From positions 1 through 38,875 of IMG/VR virus record IMGVR_UViG_3300014819_000024: DNA of 38,875 nt; one strand, given 5' to 3'. Under the pieces are notes generated by a model. That model made no database searches and was not told the origin of the DNA. It was given only the letters and a program-made list of their open reading frames with translations. Both the position numbers and the translations under genes were made by a program. The first letter of the stretch is position 1. Every line of letters begins with the position of its first letter. Of this stretch, positions 6,349 through 38,875 are shown piece by piece. The DNA is from a virus.

Positions 6349-9300
6349 ATGGCTAGTAAACCATCCCAATCTAATTTAATTAGAACGTCTATTCCGAATT
6401 TAATATCTGGAGTATCCCAGCAAGCAGACGCTTTAAAATTAACTTCTCAAGCTGTTGAGCAGATTAACGGGGTGTCAAGTGTAGTGGATGGTTTGAATAA
6501 AAGGTACTCTACAAATTTAGTTAGCGTATTGAATTTTAACAAAGCTGGTTCTTCCCCTAGTTATCCTTATGCTTTTGATGGAACTAATAGCGGTAAAGCT
6601 ATATATCCAAAAGAAGAGCTGTTCTATCCCTTTACAATAGAAATTTCAGAAAATGAAAAATATTTGGGGTGCTTAAGCCGTCTTATTTATGATTATAATT
6701 TTGATGGGGATGAGCTATATGATTTTAATTTAAAAATTTTTGATACTGCTGGTAATGCAAAGTATGTAATTTATCGAAATGCAGATAAAAATGTTTTTAA
6801 AAAGTTTTTGAGATATGACTCTACTACTACTGAAAATCTAGGGTATTATTTTAATACAGATAAAAATAAATACAAAAACCTTTCTATTGCTGATTTTACT
6901 TTTTTGCTCAACAACGACAAAGTTGTAAAAATGGCTTCAAATGTCACTTCTAAAGCTACAACTCAATTAACTGGTGGTACGCAAGTAAATCAAGGTTTAA
7001 TTGTAGTAAAAACAGGTTATACAGGAAATAATAGACAACGTCCTAGCGGAGAAATTAACTGGTCTGTTAAAATTGTAGGCTCTTCTAGCGGAGTAGTTTT
7101 TGCTAGTGCTACTGGAAATAGTACTGAATGGAATCCAGATTCCGCTTCTTTAGGTGGAACTCCTTCTGTTATTGCCTCCTCTATAGCTACAAAATTAAAT
7201 GCTGGTGTAGTAGCTGGTTCTGGTTGGACTGGTGGAAATATTGCCTCAAATGGATATGTTGTAGCTATTCAACATCCTACTCAAGACTTTAAAATTGTGG
7301 TTGAAGATGGATACTCTGGAACTTTGTTTTACAGCGTAAAAGATAATGTTCAAAACTTCTCTGATTTGCCTCTTATTGCTCCGCATAGATTTAAGACAAC
7401 TATTGTAGGGCTTCCCACGGAGGAAGGAGACGAATATTATGTTGAACACACCAGCAATTCTACTGGAGCTACAGAGTATACTGGAGGAGGCTCGGCTACT
7501 AACCCTTTGGGTATTTTTGGTTTAAATGAAGGAACATGGTCTGAATCGGTGGCCTCTGGAATAAAATATAAATTAAATTCAGACACATTACCGCATTGTA
7601 TTGTAAAACTAAGCAACGACACTTTTTTGTTTACTCCTCTTGATGGTCATACAGCTACATATACTTTAGGAGAGGGTGGAACAAAAGAATTTGTATGTCC
7701 CTCTTGGGGAGACAGAAAAATTGGAGATTTAGAAACTAATCCAGACCCAGATTTTGTTGATAATAAAATTAACAACTTATTCTTTTATAAAAATAGACTC
7801 GGCCTCCTTTCAAAAGAAAGTGTATGCTTGAGCGAAGCTTCTGATTTTTTTAATTTCTTTAAAACCGCTGTTTCTCAAGTTTTAGATTCAGACCCCATTA
7901 TTTTAACATCAAATTCTAATAAAATTGGAGAATTGTTTCATGCTGTTCCTTTTTATGACAGAGTAGTTTTGTTTTCTGATAACTGCCAGTTTTCTTTGCA
8001 ATCCGATGGAGAATTGACGGCAAAATCGGCTTCTTTACAGCCAAGCACCTTTTTTCCTGTTAGCACTACTTGTGCTCCAGTAGCCAGCAAAAATAAAATG
8101 TACTTTGCAAGTAATGAAAATACTTTTTCTAATATTTATGAGTACTTTATAAACCCAAATACTATTCTTTTGGACGGATTAAATATATCTTCAAATATTC
8201 CCAACTATATTCCTTCGTTTGTTACTAATCTTTATTTAACAAATAATTACGATTTTATCTTTTGTAAAAGCTCTGGTTCAGATAACGAACTATTTGTTTA
8301 TAAATATTTTAATTCGGGTGAAGAAAAAATTCAATCTGCTTGGTCAAGGTGGTCGTTGCCTAAAAATAATAAAATTCTTCATTGTTGGTTTAAAAGCAGT
8401 ACATTTTTTGTTTTAACAGAGAGAAATGAGGATGTTACAACTAATTATTGTTTGTTTAGTATGAATTTAGAAGAACCTTTATCAACTTTAAAAATGGATT
8501 CTTTAAGGGACTTTGTTAATACTGACGGAGTTGACAAAACACCTTTTTCAAATGCTGATGGTAATTTTACTATTTTAACTTTTACAAGAGATTATTTATT
8601 TCCTTTAAGCCCCGCTAAAACTTTAACTAGCACTACGTTCTGGAAAAAAGCGGGAGCAGGGGGGTCAGTAGCAAACAATTTATATGACAAGTTATTTACT
8701 TTTAAATCTACTTCGCCAGTAACTACAGGTTTTAACATTCCTGCATCACCAAGCAGAGTTTATTCTCCTAAAGTTGCATTAGCAACTACAGCAACACAAG
8801 GTTTAAGCTTAAACCAAGGGTTTGATTTTTCCATTATATTAAATAAAAATAAAAATTTAGTTTTAAAGCGTTTGGCAGATTTAGAATTTAGAACAACGCA
8901 AGCCAGCACATCAATTACAATGACTCTTTGGTATTCTCAAGACAATACCACCTTTACTTCTTTAGGCTCAGTCACCGCTAATTCAAATTCTACATTTACA
9001 AACATTCAAAATTTAAGTTTTTTTCCTTTAGAGTTAAAATCAGATTTAAGTGGAGAAAGGACTCATTATTTTAAATATACTTTTCATAGTGCAACAAATC
9101 AGTCTATCGAGTTGAATTTTTACGGGCTTGCCTTTGAATATGTAGATTATGACGCTAGTGAGTATTTTAATATTTCAGAGTTAGGCACGACTGGAATTTT
9201 ATTTAATAAATCTCCATACAAAGTTATTACTGAAAATAATAAAGTTTATGACACTTATTATGTTTATTACAATTTAAGTAATGCCGTATCAGCTCCCGTT

Positions 9301-19288: not shown

Positions 19289-19569
19289 GTAATTCTGACG
19301 AAGTTTCAAAAATCATGGAAGAGCTTCATGTGGAGCTTGCCAACGAGTTCTTGCGTAGGGTCAAGATGGGTGATGCAACACCAGCAGACCTTAACGGAGC
19401 TAGGCAATTTTTGAGAGACAACGGGATTGATGCTGTAGCTATGCGTGGGTCGCCCCTTCAAAAACTAGCTATGGTATTGCCGTTTGAGGAACAACAAGTA
19501 ATAGAGGCTCCAACCAAGACTTTCAGCTTGCCAGCACCCGATCAAGTAGATAAGGCTGTTGCATTATGA
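19285..19569 (+). CDS. Terminase small subunit, T7 gp18-like
   Basis: 94 residues (T7 gp18 has 89). The N-terminal helix MEELHVELANEFLRRVKMGD, then ATPADLNGARQFLRDNGIDA, is the usual pattern of T7-like small terminases, which bind concatemeric DNA and direct the large subunit to the packaging site. It overlaps the upstream holin gene by 4 bases and the downstream HNH gene by 4 bases. Assignment follows from pattern, size and position. Confidence 0.88.
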   Translation: MSNSDEVSKIMEELHVELANEFLRRVKMGDATPADLNGARQFLRDNGIDAVAMRGSPLQKLAMVLPFEEQQVIEAPTKTFSLPAPDQVDKAVAL

Positions 19570-19790
19570 AGGCACGAGATTACAAGAAAGAATACAGGGA
19601 GTACCACGGCAACCCTTTGCAAATTAAACACAGGGCTAAACGCAACTCTGCCCGTAGGCTAATGATTCGTAAGTATGGTAAATCAAAGCTTAAGGGCAAA
19701 GATGTAGACCACAAAGACGGCAATCCTATGAACAACTCCCACGGAAACTTACGCATTACTTCTATAAAGTACAACAGAGCCAAGCATTAG
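19566..19790 (+). CDS. Small HNH-family endonuclease between terminase genes
   Basis: 74 residues. A basic N-terminal region (KARDYKKEYREYHGNPLQIK) is followed by the HNH core: DVDHKDGNPMNNSHGNLRIT (residues 46-65), with D47/H48, N53 or N56 and the following NLRI strand, ending NRAKH. The length and the KEYREYH start match small HNH proteins found next to the large terminase in T7-like marine phages. In other phages HNH proteins assist DNA cutting during packaging, so this may be a packaging cofactor rather than a homing enzyme. It overlaps the small terminase by 4 bases, which argues for joint expression. Confidence 0.75.
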   Translation: MKARDYKKEYREYHGNPLQIKHRAKRNSARRLMIRKYGKSKLKGKDVDHKDGNPMNNSHGNLRITSIKYNRAKH

Positions 19791-24653: not shown

Positions 24654-24682
24654 TTGACACACTTCACGCTCTCCAGTATCTT
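24654..24682 (+). promoter_or_regulatory. Strong sigma70-like promoter of the amidoligase operon
   Basis: Perfect TTGACA (24654-24659), 17-base spacer, TATCTT (24677-24682; 4 of 6). The ATG of the first small gene follows after 6 bases, so the start of transcription falls on or beside the start codon. It is the best host-type promoter in the window and heads an operon that closes at the terminator 26949-26984. Confidence 0.75.
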
Positions 24683-24688
24683 CACCTT

Positions 24689-24790
24689 ATGCAAGACGAA
24701 ATCTGGACGCTCCTAACCTTTGGAATCCTCTGCGGAGTAGCAGGGTTTTTTTGGGGTGCGGTTTATGTCCTAACAAATAGAAAGAAATAA
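24689..24790 (+). CDS. 33-aa single-span membrane peptide, first gene of the operon
   Basis: 33 residues: MQDEIWTLLTFGILC, hydrophobic through GVAGFFWGAVYVL, and a basic tail TNRKK. One membrane span with a positively charged C-terminus, so the tail should lie in the cytoplasm. No ribosome site; the ATG is at the predicted transcript start. It lies 7 bases before the amidoligase gene. A second 33-residue membrane peptide follows the amidotransferase gene, so the two enzymes are bracketed by small membrane proteins. It could anchor or regulate them; no homologous family is recognised. Confidence 0.6.
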   Translation: MQDEIWTLLTFGILCGVAGFFWGAVYVLTNRKK

Positions 24791-24797
24791 AAACACA

Positions 24798-25763
24798 ATG
24801 AAAAACACACTATACAAAAAAGCACTACGATGGGGAGGCTTAGATATGTCCTCCTTTGATACTCCAACTAAAATGACCATTGGCCGTAAACTGAAATTTA
24901 TGGCTAGGCAGTCCCGTTTAGATACTACGGACTTCCCTCCGGGCGTTCCCGTAAAACAGCTTGGCAACTTTCAACGCTCTGCCGTATGGCTTTGGTCTGC
25001 TATGCAGGAGAAGAGAAAGACACACCGCCCACTCCTTCCCGTGATGCAACGGGAGCTGGGAATCCGTGACCTGCTCAACATTCAGAGCCATAGGGGTGAG
25101 TTTGTAGGAGTTGAATTGGAGTTTTTACTGCCAAGGCAGGTAAATTCCTCGACCCTACGCACTAGCAAATTCATCGCCCTAACTAGTGATGGCTCTATTT
25201 GTCCTCCTAGTGGCTACATTGGCCTAGAGGCTAATGTGGTTTATGTGCGTGGAGTGAGTGAAAATAGGCTAGATAAATTCTGCGAAAAACTAGCTCTATC
25301 ACAAGCACAGGTAAACAAATCCTGCGGTTTGCATATTCACCTCGACCAACGCAACGTATCACGGGCAACCGCTTGGAGACGATACCACCGCCTAGTGTCG
25401 GCTCTCCCTTGGCTTAAACTCGCAGTCCCTCCCTCTAGGATAGGGAATAGCTACTGCCGTTTAAATTGTGAAGGGGAGAATCCCGAAAACTATGACCGCT
25501 ATATGGCAATCAACTGGAAAGCCTACACCGAACACGGGACAATTGAAGTACGCCTCTTAAACGGGACGACTTCAGCCGACAAGATTAAGCATTGGGTATC
25601 CCTTTGCATAGGTGCAAGCAGGAACACACTTCCCACGATTGACGCTATGATGAATTGCAACGAAATCCCACGGGAGGCTAAAGAGTGGTATATGGCAAGA
25701 AAACGAAAGTTCTATCCCGACAACAACGCAAGCGGGATGAGTGAAGAAGGCTCAGAAGATTAA
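24798..25763 (+). CDS. Amidoligase, glutamine-synthetase fold (Amidoligase_2 type)
   Basis: 321 residues. After a basic N-terminal region (1-95) the enzyme core begins at GEFVGVELEFLLP (100-112), the metal-binding GVE.E motif of the GS-like COOH-NH2 ligases. SCGLHIHLDQRN (175-186) gives the second metal-binding segment, and RYMAIN (234-239) with HGTIEVRLLNGT (246-257) supplies the family's conserved Arg and Asn/Gly region. These enzymes use ATP to join a carboxyl to an amine, making amide or isopeptide bonds on peptides, proteins or small metabolites. The target here is unknown. A class II glutamine amidotransferase follows after 32 bases, a pairing known for this family, in which ammonia from glutamine may be the amine donor. 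The leader is AC-rich without a clear ribosome site. Confidence 0.85.
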   Translation: MKNTLYKKALRWGGLDMSSFDTPTKMTIGRKLKFMARQSRLDTTDFPPGVPVKQLGNFQRSAVWLWSAMQEKRKTHRPLLPVMQRELGIRDLLNIQSHRGEFVGVELEFLLPRQVNSSTLRTSKFIALTSDGSICPPSGYIGLEANVVYVRGVSENRLDKFCEKLALSQAQVNKSCGLHIHLDQRNVSRATAWRRYHRLVSALPWLKLAVPPSRIGNSYCRLNCEGENPENYDRYMAINWKAYTEHGTIEVRLLNGTTSADKIKHWVSLCIGASRNTLPTIDAMMNCNEIPREAKEWYMARKRKFYPDNNASGMSEEGSED

Positions 25764-25795
25764 ACACAACAACCAATTAAGAAAGAAAAAACACT

Positions 25796-26521
25796 ATGTG
25801 CATAGCAATCGTAAAAACTAAGAACGCAAAGATCAGCAGAAAGCACCTCGAAAACTCTGCTCAAAGTAATCCAGACGGGTTCGGCATAGCGTGGGCAGAC
25901 GGGCAACGCCTACGCACCTTTAAGACGATGAAGGCGGGAGAGTGGATTGACAAAATTATGACGCTGGAGAAGGCAACCGCTATCATTCACGCCCGTATCA
26001 CTACGCACGGGGCGACAGACTTGGAAAACTGCCACCCGTTCAGAGTCTCGAAAGGTATGGCTTTCATTCACAATGGATGCCTTCCAATATCCACCGCCGA
26101 CAAGCCAACACGCTCAGACACTTGGCACTTCAATCAGAAAGTGATGCAACCACTAGTACGGGACACGGGGGCGATTACTCCACCGCTTGTCGAAATGCTT
26201 CACGAGTACGCCAAGGGGTCAAAGTTATGCTTCCTAAACTATACTGGTAAATTCATTATCATAAATGAATCTGCTGGGCACTGGTCTGGGGGCGTTTGGT
26301 ACTCTAACAGCTCCTACAAAAACTCGTGCGATTGGTGGAAAACTGGGGGTTATACTTGCCCACCCTCTTACTACGGACGCTCGCCCGTGCAAATCATCCC
26401 GTCCTCTGGGGGCGTTGTCCCGATTGACGATGATGATGCCGTAGAAAGGCTCATAGAAGCTGATTCGATTAAGAAATGGGAACAGCAATCATTCCACAGC
26501 ACCGAAGGGGCGTGGGAATAA
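25796..26521 (+). CDS. Class II (Ntn-type) glutamine amidotransferase-like protein
   Basis: 241 residues beginning MC, so Cys2 becomes the N-terminal nucleophile after Met removal. Family motifs follow in order: NPDGFGIAW (25-33), HARITTHG (65-72, glutamine-binding Arg67), NCHPF (78-82), HNG (92-94, oxyanion hole) and SDTWHF (107-112, with Asp108). The later LCFLNYTGKFIIINES block is also typical of the Ntn fold. It should release ammonia from glutamine or catalyse a related transfer. No synthetase domain is fused, so the partner is probably the amidoligase just upstream. The C-terminal 70 residues (Gly, Tyr and Asp-rich) are not recognised. Its stop overlaps the next start. Confidence 0.85.
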   Translation: MCIAIVKTKNAKISRKHLENSAQSNPDGFGIAWADGQRLRTFKTMKAGEWIDKIMTLEKATAIIHARITTHGATDLENCHPFRVSKGMAFIHNGCLPISTADKPTRSDTWHFNQKVMQPLVRDTGAITPPLVEMLHEYAKGSKLCFLNYTGKFIIINESAGHWSGGVWYSNSSYKNSCDWWKTGGYTCPPSYYGRSPVQIIPSSGGVVPIDDDDAVERLIEADSIKKWEQQSFHSTEGAWE

Positions 26522-26622
26522 TGCAAACCAACCAGAACGACCTATGGGCAGGAGTTAAAATTCTAATCGTGCTGGGGTGGCTCTTCGTGGGTCTTGTTAG
26601 CTACATAAAAAACAACAAATAA
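26521..26622 (+). CDS. 33-aa single-span membrane peptide downstream of the amidotransferase
   Basis: 33 residues: MQTNQNDLWAGVK, hydrophobic ILIVLGWLFVGLVSYI, basic tail KNNK. The ATG overlaps the amidotransferase stop by one base (TAATG), so translation is coupled. It has exactly the same length and layout as the first peptide of the operon: MQ start, polar N-terminus, one span, basic end. Sequence identity is low, so the two are analogues or old duplicates. Likely an inner-membrane partner of the enzyme pair; function unknown. Confidence 0.6.
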   Translation: MQTNQNDLWAGVKILIVLGWLFVGLVSYIKNNK

Positions 26623-26641
26623 AAAAAGGAGAAAACACACA

Positions 26642-26935
26642 ATGAAACACAACGCCTACTATAACCACAATGAACAACGCACTTATGTCGAGATTGCCAG
26701 CAATCCCGATATGCCACCGCAAAATCATTCAATCCACAAGCCGTTCACACTCACGAAAGGGGTGGACGCTGGGAAAGTTGTTGAGGGAATCCCGTTGCTC
26801 TGCGGTGACTGCGGTGCTCCTGCAAAATATGTAGTCATAAATCATAACCCTTACGCCCGTGATTGTTCGGGAACTTTGAAAATAAATGACGTAAAGGAGT
26901 GGCTTTATTGCGGGGTCTGTAGCATAGGTGGATAA
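26642..26935 (+). CDS. Zinc-ribbon protein, last gene of the amidoligase operon
   Basis: 97 residues with two CxxC knuckles, CGDC at 54-57 and CGVC at 90-93, plus a lone Cys75; the spacing suits a zinc ribbon. The N-terminal half is Asn/His-rich (MKHNAYYNHNEQRTYVEIAS), without hydrophobic segments. A GGAG site and AC-rich spacer precede the ATG; the leader is nearly identical to that of the scaffold gene. It ends 13 bases before a strong terminator. It could be a nucleic-acid- or protein-binding partner, or the substrate of the amidoligase. No closer family is recognised. Confidence 0.65.
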   Translation: MKHNAYYNHNEQRTYVEIASNPDMPPQNHSIHKPFTLTKGVDAGKVVEGIPLLCGDCGAPAKYVVINHNPYARDCSGTLKINDVKEWLYCGVCSIGG

Positions 26936-26948
26936 TTGATGCAACAAG

Positions 26949-26984
26949 CGGGGGCGGGGTTCCAATCCCTTCCCCCGTTTTTTT
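26949..26984 (+). terminator. Strong intrinsic terminator closing the amidoligase operon
   Basis: CGGGGG (26949-26954) pairs with CCCCCG (26972-26977); an inner GGG/CCC stem extends it around the loop TTCCAAT region; seven T follow (26978-26984). It defines the 3' end of the unit that begins at 24654. Confidence 0.88.
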
Positions 26985-27227: not shown

Positions 27228-27319
27228 TTACCTGTGCGTTTTACCTGTGCGTTTATAAGATGTGCTTATACTTTTCAAACAGAGTGTTTTTCCCTTTGCT
27301 TTTAATTACCCGTGCGTTT
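27228..27319. repeat. Three TTACCYGTGCGTTT direct repeats
   Basis: Copies at 27228-27241, 27241-27254 and 27306-27319; the first two are identical and share one base, the third has C for T. Start distances are 13 and 65 bases. A fourth, diverged copy lies at 24140-24153, before the amidoligase operon. All are noncoding. Confidence 0.8.
27254..27270. promoter_or_regulatory. TATAAG-N5-CTTATA dyad, operator or recombination-core candidate
   Basis: A perfect inverted repeat with 6-base arms and a 5-base centre, set between repeat copies two and three. TATAAG is also a near-consensus -10 hexamer, so a protein bound here could block transcription. Confidence 0.5.
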
Positions 27320-27332: not shown

Positions 27333-27503
27333 ATGAAACACATAGCAATAACCAAAGACAACTACTACAACCTACGCCTCCTATACGAGAACAGCATATC
27401 GGCTGGTAAAAAACCGAATGATGTAGTCGTGTGGAAGGGAACTGAAATGCTTGTCGGCTACTTAAAGTATGTCGTTGAGTACATGAAAGGAATCGTCCTT
27501 TGA
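27333..27503 (+). CDS. Small phage protein upstream of integrase, 56 aa
   Basis: 56 residues: MKHIAITKDNYYNLRLLYEN, then KPNDVVVWKGTEMLVGYLKY and VVEYMKG. Short phage proteins with an NY..L...Y...I..GK...V.(W/F)KG.E.LV.YLKY(V/L).EY pattern are widespread and of unknown function. As the gene immediately before integrase, a regulatory or excisionase-like role is possible, but no winged-helix motif is evident. The ATG at 27333 is chosen over an in-frame upstream start at 27312, which falls in the repeat. Stop and integrase start overlap in TTTGA. Confidence 0.6.
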   Translation: MKHIAITKDNYYNLRLLYENSISAGKKPNDVVVWKGTEMLVGYLKYVVEYMKGIVL

Positions 27504-28483
27504 ACGGCTCCATTCAATCAGCAGGGGATTCATTTAATGTATCCTTCACAACCAAAGGCAAGCGTATACGCAGACGCTTCGGTTCGATGACGCAAGCTGA
27601 AGGTTACCTTATGGACTTACGCAGGGCTTGTTTAGCAGGGAAGCCTTTGCCAGAGACCGAGAGAAACCTTACGACTTGGCAAGAACTCAAAGACCAGACC
27701 TACACCCTTGTTTGGAAGGGAGCCAAAAGCGAGAACACAAGCAAGCTCAACAGCGACCATGTAGTGCGTTACTTCGGTGCTAGTACACCTGTAGCTCACT
27801 TCACGCAAGGAGACCTAGACAACTGGGTGGTATCCTTAAAAGCTCTAGGCAACTCAGATGCGACCATAAACCGCAAGCTGTCTTGCTTAAGTCGTATGCT
27901 TCGCTTCGCCCTTGAAAGAGGATTGGTAACCAAAAGGTTTATCTTTCCGATCAAGAAGGAAACCAAAGGCAGAATCCGCTACATCACCGCCGAGGAAGAG
28001 GCTGTAATCTTATCCAAGGCAAGCGACAAGCTGAAGCCTTTGTTTATCTTCTTGCTCTACACGGGGGCAAGAGTTGGTGAAGCCTTGAAGCTGACTTGGG
28101 CTGACTTCAACTGGACAAACAAGGTGGTCACATTCTGGGATACCAAGAGTGGCGAAAGCAGGAGCATCCCGATGACAACTAGTTTAGTCTTTGTTATGAA
28201 CGAGCTGATGGAGGTTGGAGGGGATAGCCCTTTCGGTCACATTAAGCAGTTTGAGGTGAACAGGGCTTGGACAAGCATACGAGACCAGATGGGCTTGACG
28301 GATGACAAAGAGTTTGTCCCGCACTCCCTTCGTCATACTTGTGCAAGCAGACTTGTTCAACGAGGCGTGCCGATTGTAGTTGTCAAAGAATGGCTGGGAC
28401 ATAAAACAATTCAGATGACAATGAGGTATGCACACCTAGCCCCAACAAACTTACTGGAAGCAGTAGGAGCATTGGAAACTTGA
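27500..28483 (+). CDS. int: Tyrosine recombinase / phage integrase
   Basis: 327 residues from a TTG start, with AAAGGA about 9 bases upstream and a 4-base overlap with the previous gene. An N-terminal arm-binding-like part (KGKRIRRRFGSMTQAEGY) is followed by a SAM-like core-binding domain (about 60-150) and the catalytic domain. The active-site set is complete: R191 in TGARVGEAL, K216 in DTKSGESR, H275 and R278 in PHSLRHT, H301 in WLGH and Y310 in MRYAHL. It should integrate the phage genome into the host chromosome and assist excision. A T7-like phage carrying it upstream of RNA polymerase resembles integrative marine podoviruses. The attachment site was not identified. Confidence 0.93.
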   Translation: MNGSIQSAGDSFNVSFTTKGKRIRRRFGSMTQAEGYLMDLRRACLAGKPLPETERNLTTWQELKDQTYTLVWKGAKSENTSKLNSDHVVRYFGASTPVAHFTQGDLDNWVVSLKALGNSDATINRKLSCLSRMLRFALERGLVTKRFIFPIKKETKGRIRYITAEEEAVILSKASDKLKPLFIFLLYTGARVGEALKLTWADFNWTNKVVTFWDTKSGESRSIPMTTSLVFVMNELMEVGGDSPFGHIKQFEVNRAWTSIRDQMGLTDDKEFVPHSLRHTCASRLVQRGVPIVVVKEWLGHKTIQMTMRYAHLAPTNLLEAVGALET

Positions 28484-36669: not shown

Positions 36670-37050
36670 GTGAGACAACCTAGTGAAATTGAACTTTCGT
36701 ATCTTGCTGGTTATTTTGACGGGGAAGGCTGTATCCATGTTTCAAAAATTGGAGCCAGAGTTATTTCTATTAAATCGTGTTATCCAAAAGTTGTTCAAAA
36801 ATTTCATAAAATTTACGGAGGGTGGTGTAAAAAAATGCCTAACATATCTAAAAAGAAACAATGGAGGCATTTTTATAATTTTAGGGCATACGGAAATGAT
36901 GCCCTCGATGTTGTCAACAGCTTATTCCCATTTCTGCGTGAGAAAAAGGAGCAAGCTAGATTGTTTATTAAATATAGCAACTCAAAGGATGCTCATACTA
37001 AAGCCCAGTATGCTATCCAAATTAAAAGTTTAAAAAAAGTAAAATACTAA
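36670..37050 (+). CDS. LAGLIDADG homing endonuclease
   Basis: 126 residues from a GTG immediately after the polymerase stop. The N-terminus has one LAGLIDADG helix, YLAGYFDGEGCI (11-22), with the acidic metal ligand at its end; VSKIGARVISIKSCYPKVVQ and the C-terminal REKKEQARLFIKYSNSK also fit the family. A single motif implies action as a dimer. Its AT-rich codons differ from the flanking polymerase and exonuclease genes, pointing to separate acquisition as a free-standing mobile gene. No intron in the flanks is apparent, since both neighbours are intact. Confidence 0.85.
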   Translation: MRQPSEIELSYLAGYFDGEGCIHVSKIGARVISIKSCYPKVVQKFHKIYGGWCKKMPNISKKKQWRHFYNFRAYGNDALDVVNSLFPFLREKKEQARLFIKYSNSKDAHTKAQYAIQIKSLKKVKY

Positions 37051-37054
37051 ATTT

Positions 37055-37798
37055 ATGAAAAACACAAAAAACACAATACTAATAGATGGTGATTGGCTTG
37101 CCTTCTGGCATACAATTACCAATGAATACCCCTGTGATTGGGGCAACGATATGTGGACTCTCCACGGAGATGTCAAAACAGCTACGCAGACCATTACTGC
37201 GTTTCTTGCTGAGCTAAAGGAAGAGCTGAAGGCCGATAGTATCAAAGTAGCTCTGTCCGACAGCACCAACTGGAGAAAAAGGATTCTCCCTACCTACAAG
37301 GAAAGTCGTAAGAAAATCAGAAAGCCTCTTCTTTACCCACGGGTTAGAGAATGGCTGGTTGCAGAGTATAAGGCCGAGATGCAACCAACCTTGGAAGCAG
37401 ACGACTTGCTAGGTATCTGGGCTACTGAACTAGATGGTAAAGCTATAGTTGTTGGCGAGGATAAAGACTTTAAACAACTTCCAGCGAAGCATTATAACCC
37501 CCACAAAGCTGAAGAAGGCGTGATTGAGGTATCCAAAGAGCAAGCCGATTGGTGGCATCTATTTCAAGCTCTTACGGGCGACCAGACAGACGGCTACACG
37601 GGTCTGGTAGGCTGTGGCCCAAAGACCGCTGAGAAGATACTTGGGCCTGTTGGCTCTAAAGGGCTATGGGATAAGGTTCTTAAGGCTTATGCAAAAGAAG
37701 GTTTCCCAGAATCAGAAGCCTTGGTACAAGCTAGGGTTTCTCGTATCTTGAGAAAAGGTGAATACAAGAACAATGAGGTAATACTATGGCAACCTTGA
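37055..37798 (+). CDS. 5'-3' exonuclease, T7 gp6-like
   Basis: 247 residues (T7 gp6 has 300). The family pattern is LIDGDWLAFW at the start, KVALSDSTNWRKRILPTYKE for the arch region, LEADDLLGIWA and VGEDKDFKQLP for metal-binding Asp/Glu, and TGDQTDGYTGLVGCGPKTAE for the helix-hairpin-helix segment. It degrades host DNA and removes primers. It overlaps the next gene by 13 bases. The short AAATTT leader carries no obvious ribosome site. Confidence 0.93.
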   Translation: MKNTKNTILIDGDWLAFWHTITNEYPCDWGNDMWTLHGDVKTATQTITAFLAELKEELKADSIKVALSDSTNWRKRILPTYKESRKKIRKPLLYPRVREWLVAEYKAEMQPTLEADDLLGIWATELDGKAIVVGEDKDFKQLPAKHYNPHKAEEGVIEVSKEQADWWHLFQALTGDQTDGYTGLVGCGPKTAEKILGPVGSKGLWDKVLKAYAKEGFPESEALVQARVSRILRKGEYKNNEVILWQP

Positions 37799-38088
37799 GT
37801 GTATACATAAGCGGAGCTATGACTGGACTACCAGATCACAACTACCCTTCGTTTCACGCTAAAGCTACTGAATTAAGAGCTAAAGGGTACATAGTCCGTA
37901 ACCCAGCGGAGAACTTTGACGGGGATACTACCCTACCAAGGTATATGTATCTAAAGGAGGATATTAAGAACCTTTTAAACTCTGATCGTATTGTATTCCT
38001 TCCGGGGTTTGAAAGAAGTGCCGGGGCTTTACTAGAGGCTTTGGTTGCACGGGAATGTAATATAAAGGTTTTAGAGGGAGATTTATGA
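37786..38088 (+). CDS. DUF4406 protein, nucleoside deoxyribosyltransferase-like fold
   Basis: 100 residues: VYISGAMTGLPDHNYPSFHA, then GYIVRNPAENFDGD and DRIVFLPGFERSAGALLEAL. YISGPMTG-type starts and the LPGWE.S.GA..E central motif define DUF4406, a Rossmann-like relative of nucleoside 2-deoxyribosyltransferases. A role in nucleotide metabolism is likely but unproven. It starts inside the exonuclease gene with a GAGG site, and its stop overlaps the next ATG (ATGA). Confidence 0.8.
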   Translation: MATLSVYISGAMTGLPDHNYPSFHAKATELRAKGYIVRNPAENFDGDTTLPRYMYLKEDIKNLLNSDRIVFLPGFERSAGALLEALVARECNIKVLEGDL

Positions 38089-38231
38089 TATTTATTTTAA
38101 TTCTTTTGCTTGCCAGTTGTTCTCCTGTTACTAAAGAACAGCAAGAAATATCAAAATATCCAAATGTTCCTACTTATGGAGTTGTCTTTGAAATTCAACA
38201 AGAGGAGAAAAAATGGAATCAAGAGAAGTAA
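38085..38231 (+). CDS. Small lipoprotein, 48 aa
   Basis: 48 residues: MIFILILLLASCSPVTKEQQ and a charged tail rich in Glu, Gln and Lys. The hydrophobic start ending in the lipobox LLASC predicts lipidation at Cys12. It starts within the stop of DUF4406 with an AGGGAG site upstream and ends inside the next gene (19-base overlap). A small phage lipoprotein here could act at the envelope, for example in superinfection exclusion; nothing further can be said. Confidence 0.6.
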   Translation: MIFILILLLASCSPVTKEQQEISKYPNVPTYGVVFEIQQEEKKWNQEK

Positions 38232-38593
38232 TTGTAAAAGACTCTGGTAAAAGACAGAACTTTAATACTGGGTCTGTAAGAGACACCAACGAGAATAAAG
38301 GTCGATTTGACCTGCTTCCTCCTTACGCCTTGTTTATGTGGGCGAGGCAACTTGAAGAAGGAGCCAAGAAATATGCTTCTCGCAACTGGGAAAAAGGCCA
38401 ACCTTTAAGTCGCTATGCTGATTCTGCGTTGCGTCATTTAACAAAACATCTTGCTGGCATGAGGGACGAAAGGCATGACGTAGCTTGTCTTTGGAACATT
38501 GGGGCGATGATAGAAACAAAACATAGGATTGATAAAGGCTTACTGCCAAAGGAGTTGGATGATTTGCCAAAGGAGGATTATGGCTGGCTATAA
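38213..38593 (+). CDS. MazG-like dATP/dGTP pyrophosphohydrolase (DUF5664)
   Basis: 126 residues. After a polar N-terminus, GRFDLLPPYALFMWARQLEE (30-49), then GAKKYASRNWEKG and a helix with SALRHLTKHLAGMRDERHD match the DUF5664 nucleotide pyrophosphohydrolase family; Glu48/Glu49 and Glu89, Asp92 are the expected metal ligands. Relatives remove dATP or dGTP in phages. It has a strong GAGGAG site 5 bases upstream. No PurZ-type gene is present, so a modified-base role is not indicated. The 3' end overlaps the next gene by 14 bases. Confidence 0.8.
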   Translation: MESREVIVKDSGKRQNFNTGSVRDTNENKGRFDLLPPYALFMWARQLEEGAKKYASRNWEKGQPLSRYADSALRHLTKHLAGMRDERHDVACLWNIGAMIETKHRIDKGLLPKELDDLPKEDYGWL

Positions 38594-38799: not shown

Positions 38800-38875
38800 A
38801 TGTGTATGGGAGGAGGAGGAGGAGGAAGTTATAAAGCACCAGTAATCCCGCCACCCCCACCGCCTCCCCCGCCCC
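38800..38875 (+). CDS. Gly/Pro-rich small structural-type protein, N-terminal part
   Basis: Starts MCMGGGGGGSYKAPVIPPPP and runs off the window in a polyproline tract. AGGGAG lies about 10 bases upstream. The final 22 bases equal positions 30-51, so the gene continues in the first 188 bases in the same frame. Joined length is about 70 residues. Small MC-Gly-Pro proteins of this form are common beside portal and head genes of T7-like phages. Confidence 0.7.
   Translation, partial: MCMGGGGGGSYKAPVIPPPPPPPPP

Follow-up and report, generated by a model that had tools for sequence, protein, structure and literature searches.

We found that a T7-like phage carries an amidoligase gene (AL) and a class II glutamine amidotransferase gene (GAT) in a self-contained locus between its TerL and RNA polymerase (RNAP) genes. 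We tentatively read it as a moron-like accessory locus, whose cargo would be two enzymes that together form amides at the expense of glutamine, with the cell envelope as their probable target. Our comparisons establish the anatomy, conservation, linkage and cargo exchange of the locus, and active sites compatible with the proposed chemistry. Morons are prophage cargo with their own promoter and terminator. Both elements are predicted at this locus and its content is exchangeable: like a moron, it is a self-contained, exchangeable unit, but it differs from morons in that two small membrane-peptide genes (TM1 and TM2) stay constant while the cargo changes. The constant frame would thus consist of a host-type promoter, TM1, TM2 and the terminator, with the main cargo inserted between TM1 and TM2 and a few small genes, which vary, following TM2 ahead of the terminator.

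The window, by which we mean the whole stretch of DNA analyzed, is a virus record of 38,875 bases. It encodes a T7-type single-subunit RNAP, a gp2.5-like SSB, endonuclease I, a primase/helicase and a T7-type small packaging protein, all of which bear out an earlier, sequence-only reading of the phage as T7-like, together with a DNA polymerase, an exonuclease, a portal protein, TerL and a tyrosine integrase (Pfam Phage_integrase, 2.7e-28; PHROG integrase, 5.8e-63). TerL is closest to those of Rhizobium phages and HTVC019P-like pelagiphages (55–59%), and the RNAP shares about 30% identity with those of LUZ100 and pelagiphages. The phage, whose integrase the sequence-only reading did not mention, is probably temperate, and it groups with the integrase-bearing T7-like phages that have been discussed for LUZ100. 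LUZ100 and HTVC019P, which are T7-like with temperate features, share its T7-like gene order and an integrase upstream of RNAP; unlike the window, neither is among the AL or GAT tblastn matches listed. A prophage search for the host, in the form of a scan of one genome collection, returned only a distant Bacteroidota MAG contig, and PADLOC gave no match to an anti-phage defence family above noise.

The sequence-only reading had placed an amidoligase, an amidotransferase and a zinc ribbon between one promoter and one terminator. We recovered all of these where it had put them, at 24654–26984, together with TM1 and TM2 (Table 1).

Table 1. Features of the AL-GAT locus and of the neighboring unit, with positions in the window.
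Feature	Position	Strand	Evidence
Sigma70-like promoter, TTGACA-17-TATCTT	24654–24682	+	Consensus match 10/12; conservation of TTGACA
TM1, 33-aa single-span membrane peptide	24689–24790	+	dN/dS; presence across relatives
AL, amidoligase with a predicted GS fold, 321 aa	24798–25763	+	Pfam Amidoligase_2; invariant residues; fold matches
GAT, class II (Ntn) glutamine amidotransferase, 241 aa, Cys2 nucleophile	25796–26521	+	Pfam GATase_4; invariant residues; GlmS-like fold
TM2, 33-aa single-span membrane peptide	26521–26622	+	dN/dS; presence across relatives
Zinc-ribbon protein, 97 aa (CGDC...CGVC), in the variable slot after TM2	26642–26935	+	Copy in L003
Intrinsic terminator	26946–26984	+	Folding energy; hairpin in relatives
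Neighboring unit: 56-aa ORF (27333–27503) and tyrosine integrase (27500–28483)	27333–28483	+	Pfam, PHROG

A scan of the whole region found 10 sigma70-like sites versus 12.5 expected, that is, no excess, so we rely on conservation as support for the promoter: of 9 aligned relatives, 8 retain TTGACA, and most have TAnnTT at the −10. Six nucleotides separate the −10 element from TM1; because the TM1 ATG begins 7 nt past the −10, the mRNA is predicted to be leaderless. The terminator has a predicted folding energy of −24.8 kcal/mol (z = −3), and a similar hairpin and T-run follow the slot in all eight of the other aligned relatives. The hairpin survives substitutions; both sides of the stem are altered in L100, for example. 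Within the AL-GAT unit, we saw no convincing phage-type promoter repeat, and a search of the window for tRNA genes returned none.

TM1 and TM2 were missing from the program-made list of open reading frames. Mean dN/dS values were about 0.12 for TM1, 0.09 for AL, 0.06 for GAT and 0.08 for TM2 (a single comparison gave 0.03 for the zinc ribbon), which points to purifying selection on all four genes of the series, and we conclude from the alignments that TM1 and TM2 are real genes. The TM2 start overlaps the GAT stop (TAATG), and an additional in-frame ATG lies at 26476. Both peptides are present in every close relative that covers the site. Beyond the close lineage, scans with TM1 and TM2 gave nothing except one weak partial match to TM1 (L121).

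We then asked what the peptides are tied to. A sister genome (L100, IMGVR_UViG_3300032281_000336), 98% identical to the window in TerL and 97% in the integrase, keeps the promoter, TM1, TM2 and the terminator, but between TM1 and TM2 it carries a 44-aa ORF, a DUF932 gene (4e-24) and a GP88 gene (6e-25). Because L100 retains both peptides around unrelated cargo, TM1 and TM2 appear to belong to the locus and not to the enzymes. This contradicts the sequence-only reading, in which the membrane peptides were fixed partners of the pair. That reading had also proposed looking for the peptides and the zinc ribbon beside the pair in other phages: the peptides proved to be confined to this lineage, and we rejected them as general AL-GAT partners since no such family recurs among 34 tabulated loci. 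L100 is the one sister genome from which the swap between TM1 and TM2 is known. A distant T7-like relative (L093, 2098–2943) has a GP88 gene of the same family between TerL and integrase.

The zinc ribbon, also put forward as a fixed partner, fared no better. It has no Pfam match, and among seven relatives that cover the site only L003 has a related copy (97% identical); the others have other small genes or none. One or two zinc-ribbon genes of differing kinds occupy the slot after TM2 in the window, L001, L003, L004, L007 and L086, another small gene is found in L004 and L005, and nothing sizeable is present in L002, L006 and L100. As the slot content varies among relatives, we dropped the zinc ribbon as a constant component.

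The enzyme genes, too, seem to have moved. L001 is only distantly related to the window in RNAP (about 51%), integrase (58%) and ORF 21497 (65%) but is close in AL (87%), GAT (91%) and TM1 (88%), and L006 is 92% identical in RNAP but 72% in AL. The history of the cassette therefore differs from that of its neighboring genes. It seems to have been exchanged independently of the backbone, in a pattern that fits recombination as a unit. One could go further and see in the promoter, TM1, TM2 and terminator a dedicated cargo-exchange frame of T7-like temperate phages, in which the peptides are under selection and the enzymes are swapped; TM1 and TM2 would then perhaps carry whatever cargo is present to the membrane, or be exclusion proteins themselves. 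We regard this extension, which is based on one clear swap, as somewhat doubtful; in the literature searched, we found no description of an exchange frame with constant membrane peptides. The frame offers a natural comparison: near-identical phages differ in cargo, so TM1 and TM2 can be examined both in the presence and in the absence of AL and GAT.

The assignment of AL to the amidoligases is upheld by its profile matches: it matches Pfam Amidoligase_2 with E = 2.5e-16 (60.8 bits versus a curated cut-off of 22), and its best PHROG is amidoligase (1.2e-15). It carries the motifs GVELEF (104–109), CGLHIHLD (176–183) and HGTIEVRLLNGT (246–257), and with them the metal and nucleotide residues of the family (G.E.E, CG.H.H, E.R). 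G104, E106, E108, D131, E144, H179, R214, E250 and R252 are invariant in 44 aligned ALs with overall identities down to 13%. The predicted model has a moderate mean pLDDT of 64.5 (about 80 in the core); the first ~100 residues are specific to the lineage and poorly modelled. With this moderate-confidence model, the best matches among solved structures were GS and, second, YbdK (E 2–3e-3, TM-score 0.35). In GS chemistry, ATP gives an acyl phosphate, which the amine then attacks.

GAT had likewise been assigned correctly to the class II amidotransferases. It matches Pfam GATase_4 above the curated cut-off (E = 1.1e-7), although its top PHROG match is to a family whose function is unknown, and glutamine amidotransferases follow as weaker matches. 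The model exceeds a pLDDT of 90 across most of residues 1–170, and its top fold match is the GlmS glutaminase domain (1xff; E 8.8e-7, probability 1.00), with EgtC lower in the list. The motifs Cys2, HARITTHG, NCHPF, HNG and SDTWHF are present, and C2, R67, T70, G72, H92, N93, G94 and D108 are invariant in 33 aligned GATs. Class II glutaminase chemistry is well established for the family. Homologues lacking the GVE.E glutamates of AL or the Cys2 of GAT would have spoken against the sequence-only reading; instead, these residues are kept in all 44 and all 33 relatives, respectively.

Are AL and GAT partners? We scanned 2.9 million viral contigs for relatives of GAT and obtained 61 loci, of which seven are close relatives of the window phage, all with AL. 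In 52 of the 54 distant loci, an iterated profile found AL upstream of GAT on the same strand, mostly abutting or overlapping it and in a few cases up to about 0.6 kb away (e.g., L068 and L070). Many of the 54 are near-duplicates, so independent cases are fewer. The same order is found in phages MEP402, Marvin and Ottawa and on one Bacteroidota MAG contig. Since 52 of the 54 distant loci show this arrangement, with AL ahead of GAT, we consider the pair a genuine module; the partnership claimed by the sequence-only reading stands, and related phages do not, as a rule, carry the genes apart. Across the 34 tabulated loci, no other gene family is a recurrent neighbor of the pair. At the L063 locus, AL is abutted by a RimK-like ATP-grasp gene, and two genes past GAT there is a phiEco32-type COOH-NH2 ligase gene; L048 also has a RimK-like ATP-grasp gene near the pair. 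In L066 (1414–4745) and L067 (1698–4846), a GAT-like gene lies on either side of AL. In the majority sequences of L019–L058, the distant ALs are Cys-rich in the N-terminal region and the distant GATs in the C-terminal region; the window AL and GAT are without these regions, and separate zinc-ribbon genes occupy the slot.

Phages were already known to carry AL-GAT pairs, and the window holds a compact version in a T7-like phage that is probably temperate. A published pair is that of the OM43 phages MEP401/MEP402 and more than 30 metagenomic relatives (PMC10580990): as in the window, a class II GATase comes immediately after Amidoligase_2 on the same strand, and the catalytic motifs are the same (GAT 41% identical), but the backbone is that of Zobellviridae, AL is longer and there are no flanking membrane peptides. 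Mycobacterium phage Marvin (gp105–gp106) and Arthrobacter phage Ottawa (gp65–gp66) also have an amidoligase gene followed by a GATase gene, but are actinobacterial phages of low identity (26–30%). RIO-1, LUZ24, tf and phiEco32-type podoviruses carry cassettes termed “peptidoglycan modification”, a role that is a published hypothesis for these related cassettes (Hardies 2013 and Iyer, as relayed in PMC5498523). The RIO-1/LUZ24-type cassettes resemble the window in that an Amidoligase_2 and a class II GATase are found in their early or metabolic gene sets, but they also include ATP-grasp, gamma-glutamyl cyclotransferase and/or COOH-NH2 ligase genes, and it is on these that the peptidoglycan case for the larger cassettes is built. 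In UFV-P2, a phage of this group, an HNH gene lies between AL and GAT (table in PMC3890496). None of the three was found beside the pair or among the scanned window genes (Pfam on part of them). AL-GAT pairs are widespread in phages and have repeatedly been guessed to modify peptidoglycan; with only two enzymes, the window cassette is the simplest form in which that guess could be tested.

How might the pair act? In the reading that we prefer, GAT would free ammonia from glutamine via its N-terminal Cys2, the ammonia would pass to AL, and AL would activate a carboxylate with ATP and couple it to ammonia or a different amine, yielding an amide. The likeliest target would be a carboxylate of the host envelope, such as one in the peptidoglycan stem peptide, because related cassettes are read in this way and their very different hosts share peptidoglycan. 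The altered cell surface would work against later phages. Our literature search found no biochemical studies of the pair, and we rate the envelope reading modestly above its rivals. In one of these, AL would act in the manner of YbdK and gamma-glutamylcysteine ligases, linking an amine to glutamate or an amino acid, and an EgtC-like Ntn enzyme would hydrolyze a gamma-glutamyl bond, with no feeding of ammonia. The YbdK fold match, a weak match to TIGR02050 (E 0.05) that is the only NCBIfam match of AL, and the presence of EgtC among the fold and NCBIfam matches of GAT (2.2e-4) are consistent with such a glutamylation pair. However, GlmS-type glutaminases outscore EgtC for GAT in both sequence and fold, GAT keeps every class II glutaminase motif, and there is no obvious need for a ligase to be paired so tightly with its own hydrolase; we find this scheme rather unlikely. 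It is quite improbable that the pair modifies a small molecule or an encoded small peptide in a RiPP-like route. Such roles have been proposed for GS-like amidoligases (Iyer 2009, as reported in citing papers), and two small peptides do flank AL and GAT. Yet both peptides are retained where AL and GAT are missing, and no comparable membrane-peptide family is found beside the pair in distant phages, which argues against their being dedicated substrates.

The remaining rival concerns timing. In HTVC019P and LUZ100, no more than about 0.7 kb separates TerL from the right genome end; by synteny with these phages, the cassette would plausibly lie at the left, early end of the genome and be expressed right after entry. 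A pair expressed first, from its own host-type promoter between TerL and RNAP, could amidate or conjugate a protein of the host, for example its RNA polymerase or one that serves in defence, and the genome end that the nearest T7-like relatives have soon after TerL would suit host takeover. However, the adjoining integrase and the exchangeable cargo fit lysogeny or an accessory role equally well, the left-end placement is drawn from synteny, and no protein target is indicated. We consider takeover unlikely. Contig ends from three metagenome samples cluster near 27.17–27.18 kb; we rejected this cluster as the physical genome end because the stretch is AT-rich and strain-variable and one contig has a 123-base terminal overlap.

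The terminator may double as an attP core, which we mention as a lead only. The L006 terminator (6866–6900) has GGTTCAAATCCTGCCCCCG in common with apparent initiator tRNA-Met 3′-end fragments on plasmids; its 3′ arm resembles a tRNA 3′ end, 19 bases match these fragments, and the window copy is more diverged. The fragments were recognized by eye, and ARAGORN reported no complete gene there. If the terminator is the attP core, the cassette would stand at one end of the prophage. The window hairpin (26938–26984) has a T-loop-like loop. Three copies of TTACCYGTGCGTTT, at 27228, 27241 and 27306, lie upstream of the 56-aa ORF and the integrase and are visible in relatives too; they are possible regulator or integrase arm sites.

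Elsewhere in the window, an HNH endonuclease gene adjoins TerL (19566–19790), and a LAGLIDADG-like ORF below the Pfam cut-off lies between DNA polymerase and exonuclease (36670–37050). A C-rich repeat is common to both record ends (1–60 and 38815–38875), and a repetitive gene may therefore have been split where the record was cut. At 37786–38593, a DUF4406 gene lies near a gene with a dATP/dGTP diphosphohydrolase N-terminal domain, which suggests changes to the nucleotide pool.
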